Positions 17,501-64,000 of a stretch of DNA of 64,000 nt are shown in pieces (position 1 is the stretch's first letter; every line of letters starts with the position of its first letter). The stretch comes from Acholoe squamosa (taxonomy: Eukaryota > Annelida > Polychaeta > Phyllodocida > Polynoidae): NCBI GenBank assembly GCA_949317995.1, contig OX439048.1, positions 22,759,495-22,823,494 on the forward strand. Direction: 5' to 3'. Both the position numbers and the translations under genes were made by a program. Under the pieces are notes generated by a model. It ran no database searches, had not been told where the DNA came from, and saw only the letters and a list, made by a program, of their open reading frames with translations.

Positions 17501-20500
17501 GTAGTAGCTGAATATCTCTGTGTCGAGCTAAAGTGTCAATTTTACATCTAGAATGGAGATCCTTTTCAGAGATATCCAAGGGATTCCTGATGCAAAGGCA
17601 AGTCCTGAGACCTCTATTTTGCAATATTTGTAAACTGTTTTGGTTAGTAACTGACATACTATCTAAAATAAAATTACAATACTCTAAAGTGGGTAGAACA
17701 CAGTGTTTGTATACCATTAGTGATTCTTCTTCATTAATCAATTTCCTGATTTTTCGGGATCGATATATTTTTTGATTACACCTTTTTTTAATATCTGAGT
17801 AATGCAGGCCAAAAGACATGTTTTCATCCACTGTTACTCCTAAATAGCAGATTGATTTTTTATGTCATCGTTCCCTATCTGGAGAGGGGTTGAAGCATGC
17901 AGGTTTTGTGTGGGGTGGTGCCATAACCTATTTGAATAGTTGAATGTCTGAGTTCCCTGATGGCCCCTGGACGTAAAACTAAACAAACAAACAAACTTAA
18001 ATAGTTTTTTTCTGAATTAATGGTTAGTCTATTAGTGGTGCACCAGTTTAGAATAAGCTGAATATCAGGCTGGGCAAGTCTATACAAATCATTTCTGGTT
18101 TTGCCCTCAGTCATAAGGACTGCGTCATCGGCATAAAGAATGACCTTGGAATTTTCCACTAGACTGGGCAGCTCATTAATGTACACGGAAAAAAGCAATG
18201 GGCCCGGTATGGAGCCCTGAGGGACTCTGGGGTGATCACTGATAACTTTGGGTTAACACTGATAACTTCACTTTGGGATGATCACTGATAACTTTGGTGG
18301 GTTATCACTGATAACTGGGTGAAAACCTTTGGTTATCATTGATAACTTCATTTGGGGTAATCACTGATAACTTTGGTGGGTTATCACTGAAAACTTCATT
18401 TGAGGTTATCAGTGATAAGTTTGATGGGTTATCATTAATAACTTTAGGTGAAAACTTTTGGTTATCACTGATCACTTCATGTAGGGTTATCACTTATAAT
18501 TTTGATGGGTTATCACTAATAACTTTGGTGGGTTATCACTGATGACTTTGGTGGGTTATCACTAATAACTTTGGGTGAAAACTTTTGGTTATCATTGATC
18601 ACTTCATTGGGGTTATCACTGATGACTTTGGTGGGTTATCACTGATAACTATGATGGCTATCACTGATAACTTGGTGGGTTATTACTGATAACTTTGGGT
18701 GAAAACTTTTGGTTATCATTGATCACTTCACTTGGGGTTATCAGTGATAAGTTAGATGGGTTATCAGTGATAACTTGGTAGGTTATCACCGATAACTTGA
18801 TGAAAACTTTTGGTTATCATTGATCACTTTATTTGGATTATCACTGATAACTGGTAGGTTATTACTGATAACTGGTAGGTTATTTGGGTGATTACTTTTG
18901 ATAACTTCATTTGAGGGTATCACTGGGTTCTCAGTGATAACTTTAGTGGGTTATCACTAATAACTTTAGGTGATAACTTTTGGTTATGACTTCATTCAGG
19001 GTTATCACTGATAACTATGGGTTATCACTAATAACTTTATTTAGGATTATTACTGATAACTTTTGTTGGGTTATCAGTGGTAACTTCATTTTGGGGTGAT
19101 TACTTTGGGGGCGATCACTTTGGGGGTGATCACTTTGGGGGTGATCACTTGGGGACTTAGGGTGATACTTGGAAGGAATGATGGTGGCTACATCATCATC
19201 ACAACACTCACCACACAGGGAATAAACAGACACTTGCATAGGTAAAACTACTGCCCTTAAAATGTGTTGTCCCTGGTGCTGGGAAGCCATGGGCAAGTCA
19301 CTCTGTAACTGGACTCGTTAATTTTTGGATAAAGACAAACAACTAAGATAAAAGTTAAAGCAAACGCCACCTTGTTAATGCAAGAGTCTTACACTATGTA
19401 TTGTGTCATTTTCTCTCCATTCAATAGGGGATAAGGAAATTGAAGAGGAAGAGGCCATAATGAAACCAGTTGACACAGTTGCCCTGACAAAGTTTGTTCA
19501 AAATGCAGGCCAGGTAAATGGATTTTTCTTGATTCAAAAGATATAGAATTATGTAGCAATCCTGAGAATGTAACTATTGGGTATGTGGTACAGTTCATTT
19601 CTTGGACATTATGCAATTTGTGTTGTACCGACCTACCTCTTGAGGGAATTGTTAATCTAGCACAGTTCACTGATGGTGCAACTGGTATCAGTTTATTTCC
19701 AAACAAGGAAAGGAGGTGATTCTGGAATAGGGGTTGTGTAAAATATAAGTTCTTATTGGTTTCCTTTCTAGGCAATTTTAATCTTGTTGGAGGAAGATCG
19801 TGCAGAGGCATCACAATCTGACACCAGTCAAAAACGGTCTAACATTTGTCTCAGTGAAGCATTCCTGGAAATTACTGCTCCACCTTTCTTAAAAGGTAAA
19901 ACATACTTCTGGAAATAATGTTATACATTCACCCAGGAAGTATTTAAAATCGGGTAGTAATACTTCAAGATCATGATGAGTGTTAAATTTTTTTATGTGA
20001 AATTCTGAAGTGTCCAGCAAAATGGGTACAAGCTTGTTTATAATTGAAAGGTAGCCACAGTTGCAGAAAAAATGTTTTGAAATGTACCTATACACAACCT
20101 TTCTTGTTCTACTGTTTATAGATCGGTGTGTGTCACGTACACAATTCTCAGAAGCTCAGACAAATCTGTTACTTACTGTTCATGACAGACAAGATATAGT
20201 GAGTATGGCACGAACTACATATCATTAATTAAGATAGTTCAAATAATATATTTTATTCATTAGAAAAAAACAGTCATATGAACCTTTCAGCATATATAAT
20301 ACTAGATTAAATATACCGTAATCTCCCGCGTATAAGGCGCACCTTGCATATAAGATCCACCTAAATAAAAAAATCATAATTTTGGTTCTACTGAATGGAT
20401 TTTCAAAATTCAAAGAGCTATGTGTAGATAGAGCCCCAATCACCCCCTTGGACCCCCCTATGTCATTTTTTTGAGGGGGAGTGTAACATATCAAAAGAAA

Positions 20501-36576: not shown

Positions 36577-37222
36577 GGCTGACTGCTGCTCAGAGGAAGG
36601 ATGTAGTCAATTTGCTCTGTGGGACTGGAGGCAGCACTGTGACACCATGACAGGAGAAGAACTTGGATTATTCTCACATATGCTCGCTAAGAACTATATG
36701 GAGATAGTGATGATGAGATTGCCACTCTGTGACTCAACTGAATTGGACACTCTATATGATTATGGAGACTAGTGTGGACTCTGTGTTTGGACTCAGCATG
36801 TATTGGGATCAGAGTATAGTAACTGTGCATTCCCCATGGACATTACAGACTATTTGGTAATCATATTACGTTCAGAAACATCTGGTTGGTATTTGTGGTT
36901 ATGGTAATAAAGAAATGATTAACACTTAACCTCTCACGAGTGCTCTGTGACTAGTACAGATGAGCATGTATTGGTCAATTAGCTACAGGCACTAGATTCT
37001 GATTCTGGTGATATCACTGCCCACTACATCGGTGGTACTGGAGACAAGGTAATCAGATAACACCCTAACGTATGTACATTTATCCCCGAACAAAGATGAC
37101 GCTCAACACTAGGTCTACTCTCAGAGTAGATCAGAGGGTACACACAGTTACACTGTTTGCATTGGGAATTGTTCTCTTTGCTAAAAAATTTTGACCTGGA
37201 TTTGTTCCAGATTCTCGTGAAA

Positions 37223-38540
37223 ATGGTTACTATGGCGTCAGTTACTTCTACGCCTGCAGCGACTACAATCACTTCTCATACAGTGACTACAACCGCAACG
37301 ACTACTGCGGGACAAACACTGGTGGTGCCCTCTACTGGTGCCCAGCCATGGATGCATTTCACTGGGCTGCAGGGACAGTTCCAGTTCCAGCAAGCTGGAG
37401 GATCGTTTGGACAACAAACTCCTCAACAATTGGGGTCCTACGGAAAACACCAACAACCACTGCAGCCTGCGGGGCTCTATCGACAACAACAGCCACCGCA
37501 GCCTACGGGGCCCTACAGGCAACAACAGCCATTGCAGCCCACGGGGATCTACGGACAACCACCCCAACCCATGGGACCTTAGGGACAAATGGAGTCTTAC
37601 AGGCAGCAACCCCCCCTAAGTTGGGGCCTTATAGTCAGCTACCGCCACAGTCATATGGTTTTCAACATCCAAATCATGTGATGGGTTCGAACCAGGGCTA
37701 CCCGCCACCTCCTCCACCGATGAACTTTAACCCCTATGGGGCCTATGGTTATGGTTATCTGGGACACTATCCTCCAGCAGATGACGAAGAAGAGGAGGAA
37801 GAGGAGGATGAAACTCCCCCGGTTAAGAGGAAGAAGGTCGATGAGGTATCTGAGAACTTGGATGACGACCTGGGTACCAAGTCAAAGAAGGACAGGGAAA
37901 AGGAGGCTCCGTTAGGAGATGGAAGTCTCGCTGATATGGTAAGGACCCAGAGAGAAGGGCAAGCGGCCAAGAAGAGAGAATTTAAGCTCGACAAGCGAGT
38001 GGCCGACATGGTGGATGGTGCTTTCACCGAAAGAATGCCAAAGGAACAGTGGGAGAAGTTGTTTATTGACCATCCACAACCTGTAGATATTGACAAGATG
38101 ATTGTCCTCGAGTTAGAGGATGAGATTAAGGAGGTCATTCAAGACAGACAAGATATTGTTATCTTGGAAAAGAATGTCAAGAAGCTTCAAGGTTTCATCT
38201 TAACTGCAATGGTCACTTTCGCACCACTGGCAACTCTTAGTTTTGACAAGGGCAAGGCGGATCCGGAACTGGATAAACTATCCGCGAACCTGAAAAATGG
38301 CTACACTTTACTGGCAGCTACGATGACCAGCCTGTCAAACAGACCAAGAAGAAGCATGATGGAGCTAAGAAGACAGCAGACGGGATTTCTGCCTCTAAGG
38401 CTAAGGCAGCAGCTGCTGCTAAGGCAGTCGCCCATAAGGCAGCACCTACGCACGAGAGAGGTCAGCGTGGGGCCGGCGATGGCAAGGCAAGAAAAGGGGG
38501 ACCGTCCTATTCGAACCAGGGACCACTGGTTTTCGTATAA
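37223..38540 (+). pseudogene. Gag-like retroelement ORF, broken by frameshifts
   Basis: The reading starts at ATG 37223 with a Thr/Ser/Gln/Pro-rich part that repeats a YxQQQPxQPTG unit. It meets a TAG at 37583-37585, and the sense continues in another frame from about 37610 (SYGFQHPNHVMG, a long Asp/Glu run, PPVKRKKVDE, then a helical region with DKRVADMVDGAF and LQGFILTAMVTF). A second shift near 38315 leads to a Lys/Ala-rich tail ending at TAA 38538-38540. Low-complexity front, acidic block and helical core recall gag proteins of tyrosine-recombinase or LTR retroelements. No RT or integrase follows. A decayed host gene is possible. Confidence 0.5.
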
Positions 38541-39905
38541 TCACCCCGGCACCATGAAGTGGGCCCTCAGTAAAATCCTAATTTTACAGCAACTTACAGG
38601 TAAGTTTCGTCAAATTCTACTATTGTAACACCACATAAGCGGCTGCTTGGGGCATCATGCTTATTGAGGGATAATTAAACGTAGATTACCCGACCGTAGA
38701 AAGGTAAATGTTTAACTCGAAAAGCGAGTTATAAGGAGACACCCTGGGGCCCTGCACTTTCAGTCATTTTGTTGGTGCGAATAAGTTTAAAAGAAGATGG
38801 AAATTTTATATGTAAGAGGCAGAATTACTTAATGAATTTGTAGTGCCATTAAAGGGGGAGATGTAGGGGACTTGCAGGAAAAGGTATTTCATTACCAAGT
38901 TTTGTAAATTTTAAGAAATTGTACAATTTTGTACAGACTCAGTTGGTTGGCAGCCATAAGATGCTTTTTGCCTCCAATGGTGAAGGTATATGATGTTGAT
39001 CCATGTATCAACTTTCCCACCTTTTTTGGCAATGTGGTGCGAATAGCGCAGTTTTGGCAGGAGTTATGCGAATAGTGCCTTGGTGGTGTGAATAACCTGG
39101 GTGAGGGAGTGCTGATGCAACAGGATGAGTGCACAACTCATGTCCCACTCATGGGAGCCAATCACAGGCTTTTCACTTTTCGAGTTATCAGCAATTTACA
39201 TTGCTGCATTATATTAATTATACTATCAAGGAGGATGGAATCTGCCACTGAGGATGGTCCTTGATCCATTGCAATAGTGGTCAAGATCCCCATCACTATA
39301 GGCCCATTTGACAAGGTAGTAGAATCTGACAAGGTACTATGGACATTTCTTTAAAATCGACATGTGATGGCCTTATATAAGGTAATCAGGTCTATTAAGA
39401 GACAAGACACAGGTGTGACATGGGGACCCCCATTCACCCCCCATCCCCACCCTTATATACGGGACTAAGCCATTGCTAGTACAAAACAAATTGAAATACA
39501 AGAGAAATTAAACTTAAAAAGTGTTCTATAAGAGGGAACATGTAATCCAGCCTGAGAAATACCAAGCTATTGTCTCCCATTCACACCTAAAACAATAGAC
39601 AGGTACTTAAGGTGATTGAGATAGAGGCATGGGCAGCTTATCAGTCTTATCAATCCCCATTGTTTTCTGTGGGTGGAGGGGAAGATAAGAGATTACCCAC
39701 AATGCTCTGCCAGATCCAAGATGGCCATCAGGGGCAGTTACATAACCGATTTCAAGATGGCCACCTCCATACAGGAATGGCTCTGTTCCCTATATACTGG
39801 TTGTTTTCTAGGGTAATTGGTATTAGGGAGTGGCCATTTCTGTAGGGCCTGAAATTTGTCAACCCCGCCCCTTTCATTTCATAGTAAGCTATAAAAGTGT
39901 GCAGG
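38541..39905. other. Intergenic, no feature seen
   Basis: No exon, RNA gene or clear repeat was recognised. The part next to the gag-like ORF may belong to the same decayed element. Confidence 0.4.
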
Positions 39906-48780: not shown

Positions 48781-48966
48781 GCCTATGAATGCCTTGAGTC
48801 ACGATGATTGTTGCGGACAAACCGAAAAATCAAGCTGGGGACCATGCCCAGAGTCGGTTGTGGAGTGCAGGGGACCTTGTGTGGGCCAAGATGACTGGAC
48901 ATCCCTGGTGGCCTGCGTTGGTGTCTCCTGACCCTGTTGATAGCAAGTTCCACCAGATGAAGAGTA
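48781..48966 (+). CDS. Exon 1: start codon and first half of PWWP 1
   Basis: The exon follows acceptor CTCTTTTTCAG at 48780. The first 23 nt are 5' UTR, and the ATG is at 48804. It codes for [20 protein letters not shown], the classic first half of a PWWP domain (PWWP at residues 34-37), and ends in phase 1 at a GTAAGT donor. An intron of 7.9 kb full of transposable elements separates it from the other half of the domain. At least one more 5' UTR exon must lie upstream because the exon starts with a splice acceptor. Confidence 0.8.
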
Positions 48967-51900
48967 GTAAGTCACCTTTAGTGATAGTAATCATGAACTC
49001 ATTGGCTCATGGGATATGTACTCTGAGTCTAAATCACCAGGTTGGCAGTAACATCTAGCACCACATATCAAGCAGCATTCAATGAACTGCGTCATAGTTA
49101 CAGAGATCACGTACCAATCTACACCGACGGATCACATATGGCAGACAAAACAGCATCTGCAGCCGTTCTAGGACCCCATGCCTTCAAAGAACGCCTGCCA
49201 GACGAAGCCTCCATCTACACAGCAGAGCTACATGCGTTATACCTAGCACAAGATCACATTGAGACATCAGAAGGCAACAACTACCTGATTGTATCTGACT
49301 CCAAATCATCACTGTCAGCAATGCAGCATAGCAAGTGGACACACCCTCTCGTGAAAAGAGTGTTGGAACGACACAATAGTCTTGCTCTAGCTGGAAAGAA
49401 GATAGCGTATGCTTGGGTACCAGGCTATGAAGGAATCCATGGCAATGACCTAGCAGACGTTGCTGCCAAGGATGCAACAAATCAAGTTCCAATAGATATG
49501 CCTCTACCATCAGAGGACCTCAAACGGAAAATCAGGAAATACATCCACCAAAAGTGGCAAGAGTCATGGGACGCTGAAAGAGACAATAAACTCTACAAAA
49601 TACAGCCCAAGATAGGCACAACCAAGAAAGCCAAATGCAAGAGCAGAAGAGAAGAAATTGTCATGAACAGACTAAGAATAGGCCACACCAGACTAACGCA
49701 TTCACACCTGATGAAGAGAGAACCCAGACCGCTTTGCAACAGGTGTCAAAAACACCTGACGGTGGAACATTTCCTTGTGGAATGTAGCCAGTGCCCCATC
49801 AGGGCACAATACCATCAATGTACAACACTGAAAGAGTTATTTGATACCTGCAGACCGGATACAATACTTGCATATGTCAAGAACCTGGGATACTACAGTC
49901 AAATTTAAACAGTAGAAACTTTCTTCCATAAAACCTTTAGGCACAAATAGCCATCACCAGTAGCTGACGTGCCGTAAAACACTAACTAACTAACAGTATT
50001 GTTTACAAATCTTATTGCCCATTTGACTTGAAATATAAATCTCCAATCTTTCATTAGATAGCTGACACACTATTTGCTTAGAACAAAGGAACTTCTCCAT
50101 GGCCTCCTCTAGCTAAGGGAGTGGTCATTATTCATCAACATGGGGCTAAATTTCAGACGGATTTTTTAGCAAAAAAGCCTGCGCACTACAATAGATCAAA
50201 GAGAGGCGCGAAAATTCTCTGCACCTATGAATATTGCCACACAAGGAAAAACCGTCTTGTGATTCAGCCTGAAAAACTCAATGCCAAAAGATCATTTATT
50301 GAAGCAAGCAGACTCAGATGGGACGTTTTCAGAGAAAAATTATCTGAGAAATAGGGTCGAGGTAAACTGCATTGAGTTGCCCACCTGATGTTGAAATTGC
50401 AAAAATCACACTGTATTCATGAATGTACCTGCTCTAAATATTTGAAATTTATGAGCAGTCATATTGTTACATTCATTAAATGGGGTGACTAATGTCTAAA
50501 ACTGTTATTTAGAATCTTGGTATCTTTTTATTCTCTGGCAGTGAGTATATTCCATGTGGTTGATACAAGGTGGTATTACCCACTGGCAGGAGCCTTCTTC
50601 TGAAGAGGCCTGCATGTCCAGTTTGGTCCAGGTTGTACCTCGCATGTTGAAGTACTGAGCCCCATTAAATCTATAGCTTTCACACCTGCTTAATGCTACT
50701 TAAGTTTTCCTCAAGTCATCAAAAACACGCCTCCTCGTTATATATGTACATACATATAGTTGATAAGAGTCTTCCCCAGCCACACTCAAAGGGCTGCATT
50801 CATGCATCATGATGGCCAACACATTGTCAGTGGACTATTCTATGTATTATAATTATCAACGACATATTCAAACCAAGCTGACCAAGCTTCCCCCTGTAGA
50901 ACACAAGGCTACCCTATTTTTAACCTGACAGGGTGAGTGACTCACTCAACCCCGTCTGACTCACTCACCCCATCCTCCTCCAGTGAGCACCCCCAGGTCC
51001 CACCTGCGGATCCCCCACTGGAGGACATGATAACTTGTGCTATTTTTGGCCTCACCTGCCCAGGTGACTCACTCCTGAGAGCAGCTCCCTCCCTCCTACT
51101 CCGGATTGGACTGGATCCATCCCCCAGACTGAGTCACCGAGTACTTCTAGAAATAGCACATGGCGTACACTGAGTGGGACTCCCTTTATAAACAGGCAGA
51201 ACCCCACTCAGATCATCTTATTCTTCTCCAAACCTAGACCCTACGACACTCAGGTGCCTTGGCCCCAGGATATAGCTTGGTCAGACTGGTGAGTACTATA
51301 CTGTGTACCGTATTGATTACTCTCATGCCAATCTTACAATAAAGCTGGATCATCAACTGAATTGTCTGGACTCCTGTTACCTCACTTCATGACATGTAAC
51401 GACCTGTTGACAACATGCATAGCAAACCTCCTACTGTATCATGTCTATTGGACACCATGATGCACCATCATCATAGATCCTTAGGTTTGGCATGATGTAT
51501 TAATGCAGTGGTGACAAGACACATTGATACACAGTCAACATCATAGGGGCAGCAAGATGCATTAAAACACAGTCAATCTTATAATGCCTTGGTATACAGA
51601 TAACCCATTTAAGGTTGGCATGGTGCATTGATGCACAGTCAAACTTATAATGTGCATTGCTATGCTGATAACTCTTTTAGGGATGGCATGATGCAGTTGT
51701 GCAGTTAACGCCTGCATGATGATGCAATGCTATTAATGAAATATTAAACCTTTAGAGGTGGCACGATACATTGACGCTTTTTTTTTAATATATTTTTCAT
51801 TTGTTTGATATGTTAAGGAACTTAAAAAAAAATCTAAAAAAAAACTTAAAAACTTATGTCAAGTGAAATCAACCCTCAAGTCTTAATGTGTGCCATGCAT

Positions 51901-54900
51901 AGGCTATTCTAATTCCCAATTATGTACCTGAGGGAACTTATCATAGGCATGGTAAATTATTAAGGAGTACCAAAACTATGGCATTTTCCTCCTCTTAAAT
52001 GTTTTATCCATTTAGTCTTGTACTGGCTAGTAACATTACTTTGGGTAGATAGCAAATTCTGTAATATCATTTACATTATTATCTGGTACTCAAATTTTGG
52101 CACGTCTGTCGTGCTCCTTTAGTACTTACAAGAAACTGAGTAGTGGAGTTGTAGCGCTACTACATTTAGCCTCCACATGGTTTATGAATAGTGCAGTTTT
52201 ACTGTTATCTAAGATATCTATGACTTAGCATGTAAAATTGTATCATTGCAATTTGCAGTATTTATTAATCACATCTTCATTAAAGATTCAGAGATATTGG
52301 CTTGTGGAATGAAAGAGCCAATTCTGACACCATTGTTGTATCAATTGATGTTTGATTAGGCTAAAGTTAGTTGTGTGGTGATGGTTAGTGATTGACTTGG
52401 TGGACATATATGCTTTGAGTATTAGAACTAGTATTATACTAATGTTTCACTCATCATCCTTTTAACAGAATACGTGCAAACACCTGACTGATAGTGATCA
52501 GGGAGGTAATATCAAAAGGTGGCTACATGAAACGTCAATAAGAGACTAATGGTGTCAGTGTTGGCTGCAATCTTTATTTTAAACCATGGAGTGCCAATGT
52601 AGAAAACATTCAGAATTGCTTGCAGTTACATTGTTATGATACTGTAGGGGCCGGCATCGTTGTATATATATTAGTGCGCTTCATCCGAGAGACGCGCTCG
52701 TGTGGTGCTCGTTCCTTCTATGCCAACCAGGTGTCGCTTCGCGATACCCGTTTGGTACAAGAGGGGGCAGCACCATGCCTCGCGTCCAGCTTCTACTAAG
52801 AAGCCGGACGATCCGCAGAAGGAGACTGGACATAGTCCAGTCCAGACGTATGTGAGGCACAAATAGCCATCACCAGTAGCTGACGTGCCGTAAAACACTA
52901 ACTAACTAACATCCAGACATATGTTCTAAACCAGAGAGTACGTAATAAAGTCCTACCCGAGCGGTAGGGGAGTCTGGGGCTTTGCCCAACCCGAACTACT
53001 CGTGTTGTGTTGGTATCTTTAGTGATAAGCGAGCCAACGAGCCACCCAACATTTATGTCGATACGAACCATTACAATACTTTTGGACAAAGATAGCACTC
53101 CCTTAACATTGCTGTGCCTAGTTTTAGGCTATGCACTGCTGGTGATGGGTCAATAGATTGGTGATGGATTCATCTGACATCAAATAACCTAGGTCATTAA
53201 AGCCTGCTATAGAACTATAGAAACATGCCAAGTCCCACAAAATTTCAAGAATCTTGGTTAAATAAGAGAGATAAAAATGGAAATTTAGTCAAACAGTGGT
53301 GTCGTGTAGAGCCAAGTTCTGCTTACAAAGCCTACTGCACACTATGCAACAAATCATTTCAAATAGACAATACAGGTCTCCTGCAAGTTCTAGCCAATGC
53401 ATCGGGCTTCCCTAGCCCACTTAAAAGGGTCTATATCTCCTCTTTCCTATCCCCTCAGGATGTGTGTGGTGCACATATGCGCGGGCACTGATACATTCCT
53501 CTGTTAAATAATCAACCTGTGAAGCACGGGATAGCCACTTAGTGCCGCTAAAGTGCTGTAAAACACAAATCAATCAATCAATCATAGCCAATGCATCAAG
53601 GGTTAAGCATACTCAGTGATACTGGTTTTGCTAAAGCCAGATTTGGAAGCACATAGCGCCACTTCGAAAAGAAGAGTGCTAGTGGAGCAGCTAGTGGATC
53701 TGTATCAGATGGTGCTGAACCTACCATAAGTGACAAAACAGTACCCAGTGCAAGTACCTCTGCTAAGCCTAGTTCATTCATGGTGCAGACAGCTTCCTAG
53801 CAAGAACAGATTACCATTGCTGAAATCCTATGGGCCCACAATGTATGTGAGAGCAACTTCAGCTTTCAGTCTTGTGAAGGATTTTCTGACTTATTTGAGA
53901 TAATGTTTCCCTGTGTGATATTACAGCACTTTTCACTGAGCAAGTTCAAAGTGTCATATCTGCTCTCAGATGGACTCGGACCATATTACAAGAGGGAACT
54001 TGTTAGTATGATCCGTGAAACCGGATGTGCTTTCACATTACAATATGACGAAACTGGGAATGCCCAAAACCGTAAATAATGTGATGTTCTGCTTAGATAC
54101 TGGTGCTTAAGATTCGTAACAGCTTTTCAAACTTTCACAAAGCCTCTTTTGCCTTTACAAGACAAAAGTTTAGAGTAGTGGGGGTTGGATTACAATGGTT
54201 ATAGGGTATGAATTGAGCTATAGTAATGGGTTATTTGGCGACCTGTGGATAGTAGTTTTATGGAGTGAAGGTTGTGGATCTCACAGGGTTTGGATGTACA
54301 GGCATTCACAGGTTCACATAGATGGGAATTTCAGTCAGATGGAGATGAGGGGTCACCACAGGGGGGGTGATAGCCCACTGAACAAGATCTCGAGAATTTC
54401 TCAGCAATTTCTCGAGTCCTGACTTGTGAATACGACAAGAATAGAGAACGTGAATTTCCCCGGAGATTTGGACACACTATAACGTCTTACACTCAAGAAA
54501 GTTCTCGAGTCTAAATCTAGAGAATTTCTCGGGAATTTCTTGGGAAAGACTTGGGATATTCCCAAGAAAGACTTGGGATATTCCCAGGAACTGGACATTT
54601 TCTTTTTCTCGAGTATAAGATGTTCTAGCGCGTCCAAATTTCCAGGGAAAATCACGATCTCCTTGCCCAAGTTGTGTACGTTCCCAACTCGAGTCTTGTT
54701 CAGTGGGAGACAGGGGTCCGCATAGAGAGTGATATTGTGACATACCCTCTGTGTAGTACATGAATACATTGTACAAAAACTGTGTCTATTAAGTAAGTTT
54801 TATAGAGGGGTTTCACAAATTAGTACCTCACAGATCTTGTATGGCAGCCATGTTGAGGCAAAACCTTTGCCATAGACATCATTACAAGTTTCACTTGTTA

Positions 54901-57900
54901 GTGTGCTGAAACAACTAGCCAATTTCTCAATCTCAATCTAGGATCAGTAATCCCAATACAATGGCAACAATTCATGATAAAGAAACTGAGCTGAGCTGAG
55001 CAATAGATGTTTAACGCCATTTCGACAGCTAAGGTCATATTCATGGCGAGAAATTCATTACACAATATTAGAGGAATGTGTCGGTGCCCACGGATATGTG
55101 CACCACACACATCGAGGGGATAGGAAAGACAAGATATAGACCCTTTTAATAGGGCTAGGGAAGCCCGACAAAGAAACAATTTACTGTCTTATTTCATACA
55201 TTGTGCTCCAACATGGCCACTGTACATCATTTTGACATAGCAGACTTGCAGTAAATGCCTTCATGAAACCACTGTATATCATGTTTCACATACCAATGAT
55301 ACAGGTACAAACTGAGCACCATTTAAATATGTTCTGGAATATTATCTTATAGATTCTACATATAAGCTTATCAATTCTGAGGATAAAATGGTTTATTACA
55401 CATGCATTGTTTATTCTGCATATGTCCTATTTTTCTTACATTTTCCTACTTCTTTCCTAATTTAGTCCTACTTTTTGAAAATTTTCAGTCCTATTTTTGT
55501 CCTTTTTCAAAGGGGTCTGTCGGACACCCTGCCACCACCTCCATGTTTCCAAAACGTGTAAAACCTATCCCTAATGTCCCCTGGCCTACAACTAATACCA
55601 ATGTAGGTCATGGGTATAGGTACAAGAGCCCAATTTTGAACTTTAAAAGTTATTAGATACCTGATTCTATTGTTTCCCATGTGGGTCGGCCATCTTGGTT
55701 TTCCAAAACACAGGGATCCAGTCCATATATGGTCACTTTTGATCTTTAAAAGTTATTAGGTGGATGTTAGTAGCCATAGGGACACCTCAACTACCCAATT
55801 CTATTGTTTTCCATGTGTGTCGGCCATCTTGGTTTTCAAAAACACAGGGATCCAGGCCATACATCGTCAATTTTGATATTCAAAAGTTATCAGATGGATG
55901 TTAGTGACCATTGGGACACCACAACTACCCGATTCTTTTGTTTTGCATGTGTTGGCCATCTTGTTTTTCAGAAACACAGGGATCTAGGCCATATATGGTC
56001 AATTTTGATCTTTCAAAGTTATCAGGAGGATGTTAGTAGCCATTGGGACACCTCAACTACCAAATTTTATTGTTTTCCATGTGTGTCGGCCATCTTGGTT
56101 TTCAAAAACACAGGGTTCCAGGCCATATGTGGTGAATTTTGATCTTCAAAAGTTATCAGATGGATGTTAGTGACCATTGGGACACCTCAACTACCCGGTT
56201 CTATTGTTTTCCATGTGTCGGCCATCTTGGTTTTCAGAAACCCAGGTATCCAGGCCATACATGGTCAATTTTGATCTTTTACAGTTATTAGGTGGATGTT
56301 AGTAGCCATTGGGGTACCTTAACTACCTGATTCTATTGTTTCTCATGTGTGTCAGCCATCTTGGTTTTCAGAAACACAGGGATCTAGGCCATTCATGGTG
56401 AATTTTGATCTTCAAAAGTTATCAGATGTTAGCATACTGGTATATGAGTCCACCACCTCCATGATAAAGTTTGAATGTTTTTCCTTTACAATCTTGGTTG
56501 AATTTGACTTGATCATAGCTCCTAATTATCTAAGTATTAATGTGTACGGCATTACAGCTATGCTGTGTATTTTTGTGATTACAATAATTTGGTTTTAAAT
56601 GATAAGATATCATGAAACTACCAGATTAAATTTTGAATCAGAATAATGTACGGCAATATAAAGATGTCTGCTATTAAGACCGTGGCCATGTCAAATCTTA
56701 AAATCTGATCCTAATATCTTGATCCTAGATATAGACCCTAAGATTTCAGCTGAATCAATATCCTGATCCTAATATCCTATCTATTGCCCCCTCGTTACCT
56801 GGGACATTTTTAAAACCTACCATGTTCAAGTCTTCAAAACATTTTTTTATTTCGTTTCAGAGACAGCTTACTACCATGTGTTTTTCTATGGTGAGGGGGC
56901 CGGCAGACGGTGGATCCCGGAAACATCAATATTGATGTTTTCAAGTCCTTCTGAGTTAAATGAACATTGTGCTCTGATGTGTAGTAATACAACCAGTCCT
57001 TTAATGAAGAAAAAGTTCTCAGCGATACTTAAGCCAGGTTCTAAATGGAAGTGGGATGTAGCCGTGATAGCAGCATTAGATGTATCTAATCGAAGCCCAC
57101 TAGATCGACTGAAGCAGTTTGATGCATATTATGAATTTGATATAGCTACAGCATTTCCCCTAAGTAGTGAGTTAGAAATAACACAGAAAACCCCAAACAC
57201 TGAGATTGAGAAGACCCCAAACACTGAGATAGAGCAGCCAGCTAGTAGCAAAACACTTTCATTTTGTGAGCCAGAAATGAAGAGCAAACAACTTGAGATG
57301 AAGGAGTCTATTTCCACTCCAGCTGGTAGTAGAGAACCAACACCTATTACAACTCCAGAAAATGATAAACCTAAAAGAACACAGAATTACAAGCAGATGT
57401 ATCTACAGGATTCAGCTGGTACCACCCCAGTTGGAAACGGGGAGCCAGAAATAAACCAGAGAATCAAGGAGCCAAAGCTAGAGGAACTAGACTGTATAAT
57501 TCTAGAACAGGAAAACAAGGAGATACATGTAAAGGAACCAGCTAGTACCACCCCAGTTGGAAATGTTGAGCCAAAGATAGCCCAGAAAATTAAGGGCCCA
57601 GATCTAGAGGTGCGAGGCAGTATAATTTTAGGAGGATATGGTGAACCAAACACAAAGGAGGATACCACAGAGACTGAATCATTGAAGTCAACCATTGCAA
57701 CTGCCGTTGGAAGTATCAAACCAGATATGTTACAGACCACCCAAAAAAGTGAATTCCAGGGACCAGCTAGAACAGTTGGTGAGTGCCTAAAAATGATGTC
57801 TAAAACCCCAAATCGTTTAATACAGCCATATTATAATGGTTGCAACTGAGAGCACTTATTTGGAAGTATTGTTTGGGGATCTTTTATTAGTTGACATAAG

Positions 57901-60900
57901 TTAAGTAAAAAAGAAATATTGTACATTATGAAAGAATTAGGTGTGGGATCATATTCTTAAATAGTTAAATGATTATGAAGTTTAGCCTATAGTGTAATGG
58001 TGTATTCATATGCATTTATGATCCGTAGGCACTACAGTGAACAAGGTAAGTCTGATTCAAATAGGTAAGGGAGTGATCGTTCTCAGCAATAGGACAGGGG
58101 GCAAAATGATTCTTATCTCCAGACGGAGGCAAGGGAAGCAAAGTTTCTTTTATCCATTTGAGGGATGTAAGGCAAGGAAATCTGCCTGTTTTAGCTTACA
58201 AACCCATGATGTCCAGACCTGTTTGTATGGGGGGGGGGGGGTTGGAGGCAAGAACTTTAAACCTTGACAAAAAAAAAAGGGAAAAAAAAGTTGCACCTCC
58301 TGGATCTATGTTAAGAAATTATCACTTCACATTTGCATGATGTATTCAGTTATAAGTTTGTTCATTACTCATAAGTAATTACTCCATCAGAAAGCATGTG
58401 GAGTTCAGTTTCTCAGGTGTTAAAACCTTCCTTATAAATCTGTCTTGCACTTGTTTATGGTGGCTATTGAAAAGCTGGATTCAAGAATAGAAGGGGGTGG
58501 GGGGGGGGGGGTCATTGACTGGTATTTTACTCAATTATGCAGGGTCTCCCTCCACCCCATCCCTTGCAATTCCCATTGATCTATCAAAGAAGTGTGGCAT
58601 TCCACTGAAGTGACTCAATATATTTGTCCCCCCCCCTCCACCATAGTCAGCCACACGGGAGTTTGATTTACCCAGAGTATCCTCCGGGTTATAAGTTGAA
58701 TGCAGATGCCCATGTGCCGATTCTAAGATGATTCTGGGTGCAAATCTGAGGGACTTTACAGCATTACAAGGGTAAGTAGACCAAGAATAATGAAGTTTGG
58801 GTTTCAGATTAAGGAAAATAACAGTTGATTCCTGTTCTTGAAATACTTGTGTGCAAAGAGTTTAGGAAAATAGGCTAACCTCCCACCTCTAAAATGAGTA
58901 TTCTTTAATATATCTAGAATACATAAAAATGGTACATGTCAGATGTTTAAATTTGATTTAAAGTATTCACAAAATGTTATTGTTATCACAATATTGTATT
59001 ATCTGTTCTCGTTTTACATGAATGCTTAGTTGGGTTTACTAGTGCTCTACACTTGCATATATTTGGATGTATATTTTCTACTCATCACCATAGATAAATA
59101 CAACGTAGAATGGTTGTCATTTTTAGGTTTCCTGTTTTGAAAATAACTAGATCAGCTTTCTTTGTTAACACAAAATATTTGTAAGCAAGATGATCACAGA
59201 AACTTATCCCCATACCGGTTAAAATTGCTTGGAAATACAACACATGAACTCTCACACTAAATATAGATTGACATTATTTATTTATTTTGCAGGCCAATAT
59301 AGTGAAAAAGAGCACAGATTGTGATGTCTCGATGCACATGTCTGAGAGCGTTGGAGAAATCACCTCCAAAGGAAGTCCCCTTGAACCAGTTGACGCAGTT
59401 TCATCCTCGAAAAGTAATCCCCTGGAACCAGTTGGCACAGTTTCAGCCTTCAAAGGACATCATTGCCTGGAACCAGTTGGCACAGTTTCAGCCTTCAAAG
59501 GACATTCCCTGGAACCAGTTGGCACAGTTTCAGCCTTCAAAGGACATCATTCCCTGGAACCAGTTGGCACAGTTTCAGCCTTCAAAGGACATTCCCTGGA
59601 ACCAGTTGGCAGAGTTTCAGCCTTCAAAGGACATCATTCCCTGGAACCAGTTGGCACAGCTTCATCCTTCAAAGGACATCATTCCCTGGAACCAGTTGGC
59701 ACAGTTTCATCCTTCAAAGGACATCATTCCCTGGAACCAGTTGGCACAGTTTCAGCCTTCAAAGGACATCATTCCCTGGAACCAGTTGGCACAGTTCCAA
59801 CCCCCAAAGGACATCCCCTGGAACCAGTTGATTGTTCAGTTTGCATAGAAGGCTTTGCAACCATTGAACTATTGAATAATCATTTAGGCTTGCTGCACAA
59901 GGACAAGATTAAAAATATACAGACACAAGAAGTCACTAGTGCAGGAGATGAAGTGGATGATAAATCTAAGATGTGTACATGTCAATGTAATGAGGATGTT
60001 TGTAAATCTGTGAACTTGGAAGCAAATGGTAAGTGGAGATTCTAAGGTCATCTGATTATCCATTATTACATCAGTTAAGCACTACGTTTGAAAGAAAGCA
60101 CTGGACTTCTGTGGTTGCTTCAGATTTCTTGTACACATGTAATTTTGACAGTATGCTCAGGGATGTAAATCTTCAGGTTTTTTCAGGATTTCCTGATTTC
60201 TGAAAATTATGAATGACATGTATTTTCCTTATACAAGAAGGGCTGTTTGGAAAAATAGAAAACTTTTATATCAAGTAAATGCATGGCTTCCTGATTTTGG
60301 CCCATGCCTGACTTACATTACTGTATGCTGATACACTAATTTCAGCTGTCTTCTTGACCATGTAAATAATTCGTTCATTATAGTGAATTTCTTAGCTGTG
60401 TGACATTAATTGACATTAGAATCAATACAGAAATAACTCGTCAGCCTTTTATCTACTGGAGGAATTAATGGTCTAGACGTCTACAGATGATATATCACCG
60501 CTTAAGTGATCTACCCCAGTATCCTCTAATTGTTGTTTTGGACCTAAAAGTAGAGGAGTAGCACAGGATCCCTGAAAAGTATTCTCCTTATTCATAATAA
60601 TTAGAAATTGTACATTTTTAATTAGGTAGTACCAGACAAGGCACAGCTCGTCAGCAGTGGTCTCTAGGTGAAGTAGTGTGGGCTAAAATGACAGGTTTTC
60701 CATGGTGGCCTGCAGTTATTTCTTCTGAGCCTTCCACAGGATTGTACTTTTCCAAGAAAGGTAACTCCCAACTTGTACCATAAAACCCTGGTCATAAGCC
60801 GCATTTTTTTCCTATTTTGGGCCAAAACCGGCTTCTAAATTTCCCCCCAACTCTTCCACCGGCTTATGACCGGGGTTTTAATACAATAGATTAAAGAGAA

Positions 60901-63900
60901 AATAGGGAAAATTTGGCCCTAAAGTCAGCTTATAAAATTCCCCTGAACTCACCCCCTGGCTTATGACCGGGGCCAGCATATGGCCAGGGTTTTACGGTAT
61001 ATTTCTTCTGTTGCCCCTTTGTGCATAGATTATTCAGTAAGCATGTTCCCCTAAATCAATTTTGGGACATTCTGATTATTATTGCATCAATTCAATTGAC
61101 AATCCGTTCTTTTCAATTGAGTGGACTAACATGGAAAAGAAACAATTTTTCATGTAAGTTATCAGGTAATTGAGAAATTGTTAAAAGAAATGACATCTTG
61201 AATAAAAGTGCTTGTAATCAATTATCCTTCAGCTGCCTTGCATTATGAATCTTTCTGATACCGGTACTTAAAGGTGTACCCTGATTTTTAAAAAGATTGT
61301 CACTGAATTTGATTACAGATGGAAAGAGCTCCACCTTCTTCAAATATCATGTGAACTTCTATGGTCAAAGAGGGGGTAGGCAATGGATATCTGATGCATC
61401 GCTGATAGGATTCTGCAGTCCTAGTGAATTTTCTGAAATATGTAAGGCAAAAGCTGCAAGGACAAGCCTCAAAGCAATGAAACGAAAGTTCTCCACAGTG
61501 GTGCCACCAGGGACTAGGAATTGGTGGAACAGTGCTGTAGCAGCAGCCCAAAAGGACCTCGAGGCTAGACAGCAAGAAAGATTGAATGGTGCCAAGGTAA
61601 GATATTAGTGCTAACTGGATTAATGATAAGGTAAGGCTTAAAAGGTGCCCTGCAAGTTGAGATGTTGAAAGGATTACAGATGGATTAAGTCCCTGACACA
61701 AGTTACACTTGTACAAGAATTGTCTTTTTTTTTTAATTTCCCCCCCCCCAAAAAAAAAAAAAAAAGAAAAAAGATTTAGTGTGTTGTGAGTACTGGTACT
61801 CAACTTGCATGGCAACTGTTTTCACTTTTCGAAATAGTTCCAGTTTACTCTGTTCAAAAGTATCCTAAGCAGTAATGTCATATCAACACACTGCTAAAAG
61901 TAATTGAGGATAGTTATTCATACCAGTTGTTATTTACAATTCTAGTATAAGAAAGTACAATGTACAAATTAAGATTATAGAGATACTTTGCATAAGAAAC
62001 ACACCATCTTTGAAGTAATCTTCAGTTATGATAGCCTTCACATCTTACTTGCTGTATGCTGAGCTTGTTTGGTCATGAAGTCAGTGGCTTTAGACTTTAC
62101 AGGCTCTAGATCTAATGGAAATACCATGTCAAGACTGAAAAAAATAATTAAGTAACAACTAAGGGAGAGATGAACAGATGACTGAATCTGTGATGATGTG
62201 AACATCCTAGCTAATGAGCTGCTTTGAAATGCAATGCAATTGATGAGAGTGATTTTCTGTGGAAGAAATTCACCAGATAAGCAAGGTGTCAGCACTGCTA
62301 CACAGAAGCTGATGCAGTCACAGCTCAAAGTTGAGTCAAATACAGATTGTTGCTGCTAGCTAAGAACAAAGACACGAAATAGCTGCATAAAGTGACTTCC
62401 ATGAAACCACTTCCATAATGGCAATTATCAGATGCAATTATTTTGGAGAAAGATGGCAAGGCCTAGGTTTGGTAGTAGAAATCTTGGAATTGGTAGATAT
62501 GCTAAAACTGGTTCTCCTATATGAGAGTATAATGAGCTTAGATGCTGACATGAGGGTCCCATACTGGTAATACCTCTACTGCATCCACAGAGTAGTAAAA
62601 GTAGAATTTATGCACAAGATAATTAACAGCACATCGATTCTATCTGCCACTTACATGAACACTTTGAAAAAAAAGGAAAATGATATGAAGATTACATTGT
62701 CACCTCAGTGCAAGAAGATTGTAAATGCAGTTAGTTGCAACCTCCTTGCACTGAGGTGAGGATATGTACAAAGTCTGTTTGAATTAAGGGATGACTATAG
62801 GTAATCAATCTGATTTTTTTTAAGGTGCTGACCAGTTGGCCTAATGAGGTACATCAAATATCGGGACCTACTACCATGCCTGCTCTTTGTTCTCAAGAGT
62901 TCCATTGGGGAAATGAATCTGACCATACATCAATTCTTACTGCAAGAGGTCGATGGTCTTGCACTAAATGTAGCAAGACGTTTGCTCATCGGAGAAATAT
63001 GAATAAGCATACACTGACCCATATAGGGGAAAAACGCTACAAATGTCATGTGTGTTCCAAAGCTTTCATGCAAAAAACTAACCTTACTCAGCATAGTGCT
63101 GTACATTCAACCAAGCAGTTGTTTAGTTGTCAGAAATGTCCAAAAAGGTTCAAATTTAAAAGTAAGTATTATAAACATCAGCATATTCACTCTAATAAGG
63201 ATCCTCTCGTCTGTGACTCCTCCAATCCTGTTGTGAAAGGCCGCTTCAGCTGTTCCAAGTGCCCCAAAACGTATATGTCTAAGTATACCCTGATCCTGCA
63301 TCAGCGGCTTCATTCAGGCAAGAACCTCTACAAATGTGGCATATGTTCCAAAGCGTTTAACCAGAAAGTTCATCTGTCTGAGCATAGTGTTTCGCATTCG
63401 ACTGAACGCTTGTATGGTTGTAAAAAGTGTCCAAAGAGATTCAAACTTAGACGGTTTCTAATTTACCATCAGAGACAACACACCTCTCAGAAACCTACAC
63501 AAAAAGCTCCTCATAACAAAAAGCATCCTTTTGCCAATTCATCTGTTCCGATCCAAAGCAAGCCTCAGGCCACCAAACTCAGGTCCATCAGATTGACTTG
63601 TACGAAGTGCAGTAAGGCTTTTGCCTACAGGCAGTGTCTGGCCCGGCACCAGCTAATCCATACTGGTCAAAAGCCATACAAGTGTGGATGTGGTAAAGGC
63701 TTTTGTAGAAAAGATCACTTAGACAAACACAAGCGCCTTCAAGGAAAAGATTGCATAGGCAAACAGAAGCTTCCGACTACCGATGGGCAGTACACTTGTC
63801 TTAAATGTAGCAAGACTTTCAAATTTAAGCACAAAATGATTCTTCACCAGAGGATTCATACTGGCAAAAATCATTACAAGTGTGGTATTTGCTGGAAAGT

Positions 63901-64000
63901 GTTTTCCAGAGAAGATCACCTCACTAAACACAGTGCTGTTCATCTTAGGGAAGAACTCCTACCACACAGCTGTACTGAATGTGGTAAGAGATTCGAACTT
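48804..64000 (+). CDS. Tandem-PWWP, C2H2 zinc-finger protein, 3'-partial, 7 exons
   Basis: I do not recognise a named family. Exons 48804-48966, 56861-57778, 58029-58045, 59293-60028, 60626-60760, 61319-61596 and 62825->64000 join in frame (phases 1, 1, 0, 1, 1, 0) to give 1141 codons with no stop before the window end. Order: PWWP 1 (residues about 20-130), Pro/Glu/Thr-rich linker with a 42-residue duplication (about 240-325), LEPV repeats (396-545), one C2H2-like finger (547-568), PWWP 2 (about 623-735), and ten complete or degenerate C2H2 fingers plus an eleventh cut by the window edge (from about 795). PWWP domains in general read histone H3 methylated at Lys36 and touch DNA, and C2H2 arrays bind DNA, so a chromatin-bound nuclear factor is the likely role; this is inference. 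The ATG is chosen because an in-frame TGA lies at 48795-48797. Confidence 0.8.
49042..49995 (+). mobile_element. Non-LTR retrotransposon 3' end: RNase H domain and tail
   Basis: A 288-codon open frame (49042-49908) has an RNase H domain: YTDGS with the first Asp, AELHAL with Glu, SDSKSSL with Asp, and a final Asp in [13 protein letters not shown]. It ends in a Cys/His segment ([17 protein letters not shown]). This order is known from the ends of ORF2 in I/R1/Jockey-like LINEs. The frame is undamaged. The tail 49930-49995 ends in (CTAA)n. Endonuclease and reverse transcriptase are missing, so it is a 5'-truncated copy in intron 1 of the PWWP gene. Confidence 0.8.
50080..50354 (+). other. Unexplained open frame, possible alternative exon
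   Basis: A frame of about 90 codons ends at TAG 50352-50354 with protein-like composition ([36 protein letters not shown]). A CCTCTAG acceptor-like site at 50105-50111 would join exon 1 in frame (phase 1) and give a short alternative end. No family recognised. It could equally be a piece of a mobile element. Confidence 0.25.
50890..51400 (+). mobile_element. Possible solo LTR or promoter-like segment
   Basis: TTTATAAACAGG at 51184 resembles a TATA box and CAATAAAGCTGG at 51337 a poly(A) signal, 150 bp apart, as in an LTR. A TGAGTGACTCACTC palindrome repeats at 50933-50965. Terminal TG/CA and a target duplication could not be confirmed. Confidence 0.3.
51425..51780. repeat. Second locus of the GGCATGATGCATTGATGCA minisatellite
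   Basis: Degenerate units (TTTGGCATGATGTATTAATG, GGTTGGCATGGTGCATTGAT, GGGATGGCATGATGCAG) clearly belong to the family of 22590-24050 but are more diverged and more widely spaced. It lies in intron 1 of the PWWP gene. Confidence 0.65.
52854..52911 (+). mobile_element. 58-bp LINE/SINE tail insertion with 13-bp target duplication
   Basis: GAGGCACAAATAGCCATC to (CTAA)n repeats the tail of the LINE at 49930-49995. It is flanked by TCCAGACGTATGT (52841-52853) and TCCAGACATATGT (52912-52924). So it is a separate, extremely 5'-truncated retro-insertion or a SINE sharing that tail. Confidence 0.8.
53225..54180 (+). pseudogene. hAT-like transposase remnant with nested SINE
   Basis: The front (53225-53403) reads [20 protein letters not shown] and CRVEPSS, then [10 protein letters not shown], a BED/TTF-type zinc-finger-like start common in hAT-related transposon proteins. 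It is cut by a SINE (53404-53584). After it the frame resumes with stops: a Ser/Ala-rich part, [34 protein letters not shown], and [12 protein letters not shown], the latter in the place where related proteins have their Phe-Asp-Glu catalytic-region motif. At least three stops and a shift mean it is dead. hAT membership is from memory of similar proteins. Confidence 0.6.
53404..53584 (+). mobile_element. SINE-like insertion with 13-bp target duplication
   Basis: Flanked by TAGCCAATGCATC at 53391-53403 and 53585-53597. The body GGGCTTCCCTAGCCCACTT to CATTCCTCTGTT is the reverse complement of the elements at 34994 and 54990; the 3' part (GTGCTGTAAAACACAAATC) ends in (AATC)n and resembles the LINE tail GTGCCGTAAAACACTAAC. 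Confidence 0.85.
54380..54720. repeat. TCTCGAG/GGGAATTTC word-rich segment
   Basis: Words TCTCGAGAATTTCTC, TTCTCGGGAATTTCTTGGG and GACTTGGGATATTCCCAAG occur several times, forming local palindromes such as TTGGGATATTCCCAA twice. Nature unknown; probably part of an inverted-repeat element. Confidence 0.4.
54990..55170 (-). mobile_element. SINE-like element, AACGCCATTTCGACAGC family, copy 3
   Basis: It runs from GAGCTGAGCAATAGATG and TTTAACGCCATTTCGACAGC to GGGCTAGGGAAGCCCGAC, close to 34994-35195. The family's true 3' end on the minus strand is GGCGTTAAACATCTATT. Confidence 0.7.
55640..56430. repeat. Tandem repeat, 133-bp unit, six copies, with CGGCCATCTTGG
   Basis: The marker word CGGCCATCTTGG (with variants) starts at about 55687, 55821, 55953, 56087, 56219 and 56353, a steady spacing of 132-134 bp. 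The unit runs GGACACCTCAACTACC, TTGTTTTCCATGTG, GGTTTTCAGAAACACAGGG, TGGTCAATTTTGATCTT. It lies at the end of intron 1, some 430 bp before exon 2. The unit is coding in some frames only by chance. Confidence 0.85.
56861..57778 (+). CDS. Exon 2: second half of PWWP 1 and charged linker
   Basis: The acceptor TTCGTTTCAG and phase 1 restore [19 protein letters not shown], the second half of PWWP 1. A helical extension follows, with [20 protein letters not shown]. The linker then has the short repeat KTPNTEIE twice, and a 42-residue tandem duplication marked by [18 protein letters not shown] and [18 protein letters not shown]. The linker is rich in Glu, Pro, Thr and Lys and is probably disordered. 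The donor TTG|GTGAGT leaves phase 1. Confidence 0.8.
57779..59292 (+). other. Introns around micro-exon 3
   Basis: Apart from 58029-58045 nothing coding is seen. G runs lie at 58230-58240 and 58496-58511 and a C run at 58628-58636. Confidence 0.4.
58029..58045 (+). CDS. Predicted 17-nt micro-exon 3
   Basis: The sequence between CCGTAG and GTAAGT is GCACTACAGTGAACAAG. It takes the phase-1 G from exon 2 and ends in phase 0, exactly as exon 4 needs; joining exon 2 straight to exon 4 would break the frame. It adds GTTVNK. The donor is good, the acceptor weak in pyrimidines. Another bridging exon in the intron cannot be excluded. Confidence 0.5.
59293..60028 (+). CDS. Exon 4: LEPV repeats and isolated C2H2-like finger
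   Basis: This 245-codon exon (phase 0 in, 1 out) opens with a short acidic lead and then eleven LEPV units. A finger of pattern C-x2-C-x12-H-x4-H (CSVCIEGF ... HLGLLH, residues 547-568) follows without a gap. A second Cys cluster ([11 protein letters not shown]) near the end is too irregular to call a finger. The acceptor TTTATTTTGCAG and donor ATG|GTAAGT are good. Confidence 0.8.
59380..59829 (+). repeat. Coding minisatellite, 42/45-bp unit, about 11 copies
   Basis: The unit codes for [15 protein letters not shown] (45 bp) or the same without one His (42 bp). Copies differ by few bases, so the array is young or kept uniform. Since both unit lengths are multiples of three, all three forward frames stay open across most of it. 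The first and last units are the most diverged, as usual for tandem arrays. Confidence 0.9.
60626..60760 (+). CDS. Exon 5: first half of PWWP 2
   Basis: The exon has phase 1 at both ends. It codes for [20 protein letters not shown] with PWWP at residues 637-640, and closely mirrors exon 1 ([20 protein letters not shown]). It ends YFSKK before a GTAACT donor. The intron interrupts PWWP 2 at the same place and phase as in PWWP 1. Confidence 0.85.
60776..60999. mobile_element. Related inverted-repeat element, TACCATAAAACCCTGG ends
   Basis: Ends TACCATAAAACCCTGG and CCAGGGTTTTACGGTA. Internal words TCATAAGCCGC and GGCTTATGACCGGGG repeat in both directions. It sits in the short intron between exons 5 and 6 of the PWWP gene. 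Confidence 0.6.
61319..61596 (+). CDS. Exon 6: second half of PWWP 2
   Basis: This exon codes for [20 protein letters not shown], then [13 protein letters not shown] and the helical extension [20 protein letters not shown]. These parallel exon 2 ([48 protein letters not shown]). Phase 1 in, phase 0 out, with donor AAG|GTAAGA. So the duplicated unit is the PWWP domain plus its C-terminal helices. Confidence 0.85.
61597..62824 (+). other. Intron before the zinc-finger exon
   Basis: There is a C run plus A run at 61740-61765 and a short inverted pair, ACCTCAGTGCAAGAAG at 62702 against CTTGCACTGAGGT at 62745. Good borders (AAG|GTAAGA and TTTTTTTAAG). No other exon seen. Confidence 0.45.
62825..64000 (+). 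CDS. Exon 7: C2H2 zinc-finger array, open at window end
   Basis: The frame is open for 392 codons from acceptor TTTTTTTAAG. Fingers start at about residue 795 (62960): [63 protein letters not shown] (degenerate: one residue between the cysteines, second His replaced), [16 protein letters not shown], and CTECGKRF cut by the window edge. Most are C-x2-C-x12-H-x3-H, but only some linkers resemble TGEKP (IGEKRY, TGQKPY). Fingers 1-3 and 4-6 are a three-finger duplication, and fingers 9-11 look like a third copy. Confidence 0.9.
   Translation, partial: MLTSWPNEVHQISGPTTMPALCSQEFHWGNESDHTSILTARGRWSCTKCSKTFAHRRNMNKHTLTHIGEKRYKCHVCSKAFMQKTNLTQHSAVHSTKQLFSCQKCPKRFKFKSKYYKHQHIHSNKDPLVCDSSNPVVKGRFSCSKCPKTYMSKYTLILHQRLHSGKNLYKCGICSKAFNQKVHLSEHSVSHSTERLYGCKKCPKRFKLRRFLIYHQRQHTSQKPTQKAPHNKKHPFANSSVPIQSKPQATKLRSIRLTCTKCSKAFAYRQCLARHQLIHTGQKPYKCGCGKGFCRKDHLDKHKRLQGKDCIGKQKLPTTDGQYTCLKCSKTFKFKHKMILHQRIHTGKNHYKCGICWKVFSREDHLTKHSAVHLREELLPHSCTECGKRFEL

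Follow-up and report, generated by a model that had tools for sequence, protein, structure and literature searches.

Background

In poly-C2H2 proteins, KRAB, SCAN, ZAD and BTB domains are the N-terminal partners of C-terminal clusters of zinc fingers, and such partners are typical of lineages, KRAB and SCAN occurring in vertebrates and ZAD in insects (available portion of PMC5509000). The PWWP domains a and b of the NSD proteins, which methylate lysine 36 of histone H3 (H3K36), form separate groups according to the available portion of PMC3457860, suggesting different origins, with type a placed near ZCWPW1. For PWWP1 of NSD2, the accessible text of PMC10955146 gives Y233, W236 and F266 as the presumed aromatic cage and dimethylated H3K36 (H3K36me2) as the in vitro ligand. 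Here we describe a gene of the polynoid annelid Acholoe squamosa (assembly GCA_949317995.1; genome of 1.48 Gb) whose predicted product joins two PWWP domains, apparently of NSD PWWP1 type, to a long array of C2H2 zinc fingers. It lies in a stretch of 64,000 nucleotides of contig OX439048.1 (C14:22759495-22823494, hereafter the window), and coordinates below refer to the window unless a contig is named. We give a probability of roughly 0.6 to the reading that this is an animal gene coding for a chromatin-directed transcription factor, in which the PWWP1 exon pair of an NSD gene was copied, duplicated and joined to a poly-C2H2 exon.

Our literature search, with most subscription journals and all protein databases outside its scope, found no paper on a PWWP-PWWP-C2H2 protein in the texts available, so that proteins of this kind may well carry automatic annotations already. 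Neither PMC2993927 nor PMC12111275 names one in the portions available, and C2H2 is found nowhere in the main text of PMC3457860, which is devoted to PWWP evolution. The pairing of PWWP with C2H2 fingers as such is not unheard of, since the available portion of PMC4351887 names PWWP among the domains that accompany divergent C2H2 fingers in genes of the fly. An earlier reading of the same sequence (the first-pass annotation) had stated that no named family shows this order of domains; for the order itself this agrees with the literature covered, but the underlying combination has been named before.

Results

Gene structure and domain content

The seven exons with matching phases that had been proposed for this locus were rebuilt, by reading of the sequence and by a scripted reconstruction, into one spliced open frame of 1346 amino acids, with GT-AG borders at all six introns, junction phases of 1, 1, 0, 1, 1 and 0, and no stop or frameshift across the 1346 codons; exon 3 is optional. 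The order of the predicted protein is a first PWWP domain (PWWP-A), a linker, a second linker coded by a 45-bp repeat, a single C2H2 finger, a second PWWP domain (PWWP-B) and 15 C2H2 fingers. Pfam recognises PWWP in two stretches, with a whole-protein E value of 3.4e-29, which bears out the two PWWP domains of the first-pass annotation, and zf-C2H2 with an E value of 7.1e-40, together with zf-H2C2_2 and zf-C2H2_4; the MUM1-like PWWP family stays below the cut-off. No SET, PR/SET, AWS, PHD, HMG or MutS domain is among the five Pfam families listed for the model. The gene is not an NSD enzyme, because its model lacks SET, PHD and the second type of PWWP. The contrast with the NSD methyltransferases drawn earlier thus holds for the absence of SET and PHD, but not for the PWWP domains, both of which appear to be of NSD PWWP1 type and are interrupted by a phase-1 intron in the loop where the NSD gene of this genome has one. 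The gene was also rejected as an NSD orthologue, the genome's own NSD gene being located on C9, and as MSH6, for which the match on C15 is the better candidate.

The union of the PWWP domains with the finger array depends on the join of exons 6 and 7. Splice sites were scored with textbook weights against all 1216 GT and 1509 AG dinucleotides of a 22-kb region, and bridges between exons were searched with minimum scores of 5 for donors and 3 for acceptors, either directly or through one extra exon. The donor of exon 6 scores 10.5 and the acceptor of exon 7 scores 7.1, both in phase 0, and at these thresholds their join is the only in-phase chain that leads from exon 6 into the finger frame. 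Neither AATAAA nor ATTAAA occurs in the 1,228 bases that separate the two exons (61597-62824). From these splice signals, we infer that exons 1-7 probably share one mRNA.

All exons are on the forward strand, and the ranks given here are those of their sites among the GT and AG of the region. Exon 1 (48804..48966; donor in the top 5.3%) holds the start codon and the first half of PWWP-A, and ends in phase 1. Exon 2 (56861..57778; acceptor top 0.53%, donor top 1.23%) holds the second half of PWWP-A with a C-terminal helical extension like that of NSD2, followed by a linker. Exon 3 (58029..58045; acceptor top 8%, donor top 0.08%), the least certain of all, is a 17-nt micro-exon that leads from phase 1 to phase 0. 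Exon 4 (59293..60028; acceptor top 0.20%, donor top 0.74%) codes for the tandem-repeat linker, then for the lone C2H2 finger and a Cys-containing tail. PWWP-B is divided between exon 5 (60626..60760; acceptor top 8%, donor top 1.64%), which carries its first half (Pfam PWWP 1-33) and ends in phase 1, and exon 6 (61319..61596; acceptor top 15%, donor top 0.66%), which carries the second half and a helical extension and ends in phase 0. The C2H2 array is coded by exon 7 (62825..64618, with 62825..64000 inside the window; acceptor top 3.25%), which runs 618 nt past the window edge to a stop codon at 64616-64618 in window numbering. The ATG used here, at 48804, has an in-frame stop directly upstream (frame from 48798); position 48781, from which the first-pass annotation counted the span to be confirmed as one transcript, belongs to the acceptor side of exon 1.

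When the region was resampled 100 times with a first-order Markov model, the longest open frame averaged 132 codons and reached 221 at most, less than the frames of exon 7 (605 codons), exon 2 (358) and exon 4 (257); the tandem repeat of exon 4 is not modelled by this control. In-phase bridges from exon 2 to exon 4 numbered 24, and the highest summed score belongs to the route through the 17-nt exon 3, a summed score being one that favours routes with an extra exon. The idea that exon 3 is necessary to reconcile the phases was rejected, and the exon is dispensable, because a donor at 57609 (7.7) joins the exon 4 acceptor at 59293 (11.0) directly in phase. The exon count is therefore six or seven, and the difference is confined to the linker after PWWP-A.

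The repeat-coded linker noted earlier corresponds to a 45-bp tandem array at 59378-59830 on the forward strand, with 10.3 copies, which lies within exon 4 and codes for linker units of a 15-residue S...H type. This coding minisatellite is also open across the whole array in one other frame, and its copy number may be variable between individuals.

Origin of the two PWWP domains

The best single-domain match among solved structures is PWWP1 of NSD2 for both domains, with 70.7 bits for PWWP-A (9kn9; E 1e-18; residues 2-123 of 128) and 76.5 bits for PWWP-B (7vln; E 1.8e-20; residues 2-121 of 127), and in both cases the match extends over the helices after the barrel. MSH6 matches the barrel only, with 51.5 bits for PWWP-A (E 8.6e-13; query 1-59) and 43.9 bits for PWWP-B (E 2.1e-10; query 2-67), while NSD3 scores 50.2 and 56.6 bits, respectively. 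Within one NSD2 chain, PWWP-A scores 64.0 bits against PWWP1 and 18.5 against PWWP2, and PWWP-B has one matching stretch, located in PWWP1. For PWWP-A against full-length NSD2, the E value of 5.2e-22 adds up two stretches and was not used.

The genome's own NSD gene (C9:11309544-11335623) was identified by a PWWP1, an HMG box, PHD fingers of NSD type and an AWS domain, and its second PWWP is at C9:11324226. In the PWWP1 of this gene (C9:11310339-11312865), a phase-1 intron follows ...IYIQTK, with the donor A|GTGAGT and the acceptor CAG|AG. PWWP-A is interrupted in the corresponding loop by an intron of the form A|GTAAGT ... CAG|AG, also in phase 1, and PWWP-B has a phase-1 intron there too, while the PWWP exon of the own MSH6-like gene on C15 runs uninterrupted through that loop. 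Since the best structure matches include the helices and the phase-1 intron falls in the loop used by the own NSD gene, PWWP-A and PWWP-B can be assigned on sequence to the NSD PWWP1 type.

PWWP-A shares 56 of 125 positions with the own NSD PWWP1 (45%), PWWP-B shares 56 of 122 (46%), and the two are identical to each other at 50 of 119 (42%); identity to NSD2 PWWP1 is 29-31%, and to the shorter own MSH6 piece 40% for PWWP-A and 35% for PWWP-B. The motifs AKMTG, WWPA, FYG and SPSE are common to PWWP-A and PWWP-B, where the own NSD has AKVTG, WWPC, FFG and GPAE. A five-row tree, one row of which covers 43% of the columns, pairs PWWP-A with PWWP-B with support of 93/92, below the 95 mark like every branch in it, and when rooted on MSH6 it joins the own NSD to this pair ahead of NSD2 (80/83). 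The likeliest and simplest history would be that the PWWP1 exons of an NSD gene were captured once, as a pair, and then duplicated within the gene that received them; a less simple alternative would be that the two domains were captured independently.

Aromatic cage

Aligned to NSD2, the three cage positions read H/W/F in PWWP-A, F/W/F in PWWP-B and H/W/F in the own NSD PWWP1. Judged from the alignment, PWWP-B appears to retain an aromatic cage. The own NSD PWWP1 has His (GHPWWP) in place of the cage Tyr233 of NSD2, a residue that to our knowledge is uncommon at this position. Because the own NSD has H/W/F too, the His of PWWP-A is perhaps a feature of the lineage and not a sign of decay.

Zinc-finger array

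The C2H2 pattern is matched 16 times, once in exon 4 and 15 times in exon 7, of which nine fingers lie wholly within the window and a tenth straddles its edge; the at least ten fingers of the first-pass annotation are thus surpassed. An extra, degenerate finger can be seen by eye near residue 1036, where the pattern is not satisfied. The contact positions -1, 2, 3 and 6, read in the usual register, follow no regular scheme, and K, F, Y and L are frequent there.

A genome search with those 392 of the 597 exon 7 residues that fall inside the window, in which 105 of 2887 candidates were scored, gave 265 matches, and the best-scoring match elsewhere shows 37% identity across query residues 135-390. 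On this result, and within the candidates scored, it was rejected that the finger exon had been copied recently from another gene of the genome. Among the matches listed, other C2H2 matches on C14 lie at 55-60 Mb, distant from the gene at 22.8 Mb. Also among them are C2H2 clusters at C10:13.7-14.5 Mb and 72-77 Mb and at C4:71-86 Mb, some with frames of more than 1,500 codons.

Copy number and surroundings of the gene

A genome search with the Pfam PWWP model scored 19 candidates and gave seven exon hits, two in this gene, two in the NSD gene, and one each on C15, on C6 and at C14:23522626. The search with PWWP-B scored 22 candidates and gave eight matches, four in this gene, two in NSD and one each on C15 and C6. 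From our reading of the translations, we take the C15 match to be MSH6-like, that on C6 PWWP2-like and that at C14:23522626 MBD5/6-like. No second PWWP gene with fingers was found in either search, both of which proceed exon by exon and can miss intron-split or weak relatives, and within these limits the PWWP-PWWP-C2H2 gene appears to be single copy in the genome. The weight of the finding is limited accordingly, because the gene is single in the searches made and not an expanded family. A search for SSXRD, made as a test for PRDM9, gave no match, and its control was silent as well.

Intron 1 measures 7.9 kb and contains a 291-codon open frame (49033-49908) with an RNase H domain (E 4e-12), which is probably a transposon fragment, and a 134-bp tandem array (55658-56428) of 5.8 copies with 85% matches. 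Elsewhere in the window, a 477-codon open frame (37195-38628) and a 206-codon frame on the reverse strand (17244-17864) have no Pfam match; the latter resembles by eye the tail of a non-LTR reverse transcriptase. Neither the Rfam scan nor the tRNA scan had a match in the window.

Discussion

The order of domains in one predicted spliced frame, the NSD PWWP1 character of both PWWPs and the absence of a catalytic domain from the model are what the sequence can be taken to establish. Several observations weigh against the history and the single transcript proposed here. The acceptors of exons 3, 5 and 6 rank only in the top 8-15%, exon 3 can be bypassed by the direct join from 57609, an out-of-frame ATG at 48785 precedes the start, and after the stop there is no AATAAA within 2 kb, only an ATTAAA, the first at 64940. 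As to origin, the loop that holds the phase-1 introns is gapped in the alignment, so that exact homology of the intron position is likely but unproven; over the barrel, PWWP-A is identical to the own MSH6 at 22 of 55 positions, and the own NSD at 25 of 55; the pairing of PWWP-A with PWWP-B falls short of the 95 mark; and the alignment and tree took in PWWPs of NSD and MSH6, while the available portion of PMC3457860 relates ZCWPW-type PWWPs to NSD type a as well. Specific DNA recognition by the fingers is not assured, because their contact residues are irregular.

Signals around the exon 6-7 join bear on whether there are two adjacent genes, a PWWP-only reader derived from NSD (exons 1-6) and a poly-C2H2 gene (exon 7 with its own 5' exon). 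Left unspliced, exon 6 adds VRY only and then meets a stop, and the donor-like site at 61630 (11.4), which follows this stop, outscores the donor of exon 6. So does a further strong site of donor type, 62755 (11.1); used with the 62825 acceptor of exon 7 it would give a 69-nt intron, and it may be the end of the first exon of a separate finger gene or part of an alternative exon. There is moreover an early Met in exon 7 (TTMPAL), and two acceptor-like sites, 62103 (8.6) and 62898 (7.3), score above the acceptor of exon 7, but neither yields an in-phase chain. Against a division stand the phase-0 match of the exon 6 donor with the exon 7 acceptor as the only chain available, the stretch between them free of both polyadenylation hexamers, and the C2H2 finger already present in exon 4, inside the PWWP part, so that we regard two genes as unlikely. 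That the locus is decaying or misassembled, or a chance union of exons, could be suspected from the long first intron with its RNase H-bearing fragment and 134-bp array and from the coding minisatellite; seven exons that read through 1346 codons without a stop or frameshift, and frames longer than any of the 100 resamples, make this very improbable.

A single transcript could also code for a protein whose PWWPs serve as DNA or dimer contacts, and not as methyl-lysine readers, with the fingers alone choosing the target. PWWP domains bind DNA as well, and PWWP-A has His at the position of NSD2 Y233. Work on NSD2 PWWP1 with double-stranded DNA is also mentioned in the accessible text of PMC10955146. 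PWWP-B, however, has F/W/F, and the own NSD PWWP1, presumably functional, is itself H/W/F, which means that the His may be tolerated, and we hold the non-reader alternative to be doubtful.

We favour a chromatin-directed factor, whose gene would have received a copy of the PWWP1 exon pair from an NSD-type H3K36 methyltransferase gene, followed by duplication of this pair inside its new setting and by union with a poly-C2H2 exon. By analogy with what is reported for NSD2 PWWP1, PWWP-B, and more weakly PWWP-A, would bind nucleosomes with methylated H3K36, while the finger array would select a DNA sequence, and stable binding would need the DNA motif and the mark written by NSD together. The likely function is thus that of a DNA-sequence-directed factor that also reads H3K36 methylation. 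The proposal of the first-pass annotation, a chromatin reader whose fingers add sequence-specific DNA binding, fits this evidence and remains the best reading of the sequence. More tentatively, and with the odds rather against it, we suggest a lineage-specific regulator made from the reader half of a histone-mark writer, which would require a DNA motif together with the NSD mark, for instance in policing transposons inside transcribed, H3K36-methylated genes, or in marking sites for recombination or transcription. If true, the gene would offer a natural test of combined motif and histone-mark recognition in one protein, a pairing that could direct a regulator to specific DNA sites within marked chromatin.

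Comparison with known systems

The H3K36 methyltransferases NSD1/2/3 (WHSC1) resemble this gene in having a PWWP1-type domain with a helical extension, and the loop that is split here by a phase-1 intron is split likewise in the own NSD, but this model has a C2H2 array and no SET, AWS, PHD or HMG domain. MSH6 is among the best solved-structure matches through its PWWP barrel only, and its mismatch-repair domain is absent from the model. BRPF1 (Peregrin) likewise unites a PWWP and a C2H2-type finger in one chromatin protein, yet it differs by its PHD-knuckle-PHD, its bromodomain, and the C-terminal position of its PWWP, and it is not known to have a long finger array. In PRDM9, which is not known to contain a PWWP, a histone methyltransferase is combined with a finger array, whereas no SET or PR family is found in this model. 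ZCWPW1, which like ZCWPW2 is a partner of PRDM9, is termed a dual histone methyl reader in the literature, as far as the available texts go. ZCWPW1 carries a CW finger but is not known to have an array of C2H2 fingers. NSD has two PWWP types, a and b (available portion of PMC3457860), whereas this gene has two PWWPs of one type.

With 15 pattern matches in exon 7, the array has more than the three tandem fingers expected at least of poly-C2H2 proteins. Like the factors with KRAB, SCAN, ZAD or BTB described in the available portion of PMC5509000, where PWWP has 0 occurrences, the predicted protein has C-terminal fingers and an additional N-terminal part, which here consists of two PWWPs. It is best classed among the poly-C2H2 proteins, with two domains of chromatin-reader type joined to the fingers at the N-terminal side in an uncommon pairing, and its apparently NSD-derived PWWP pair would exemplify a poly-C2H2 protein whose N-terminal part reads chromatin.

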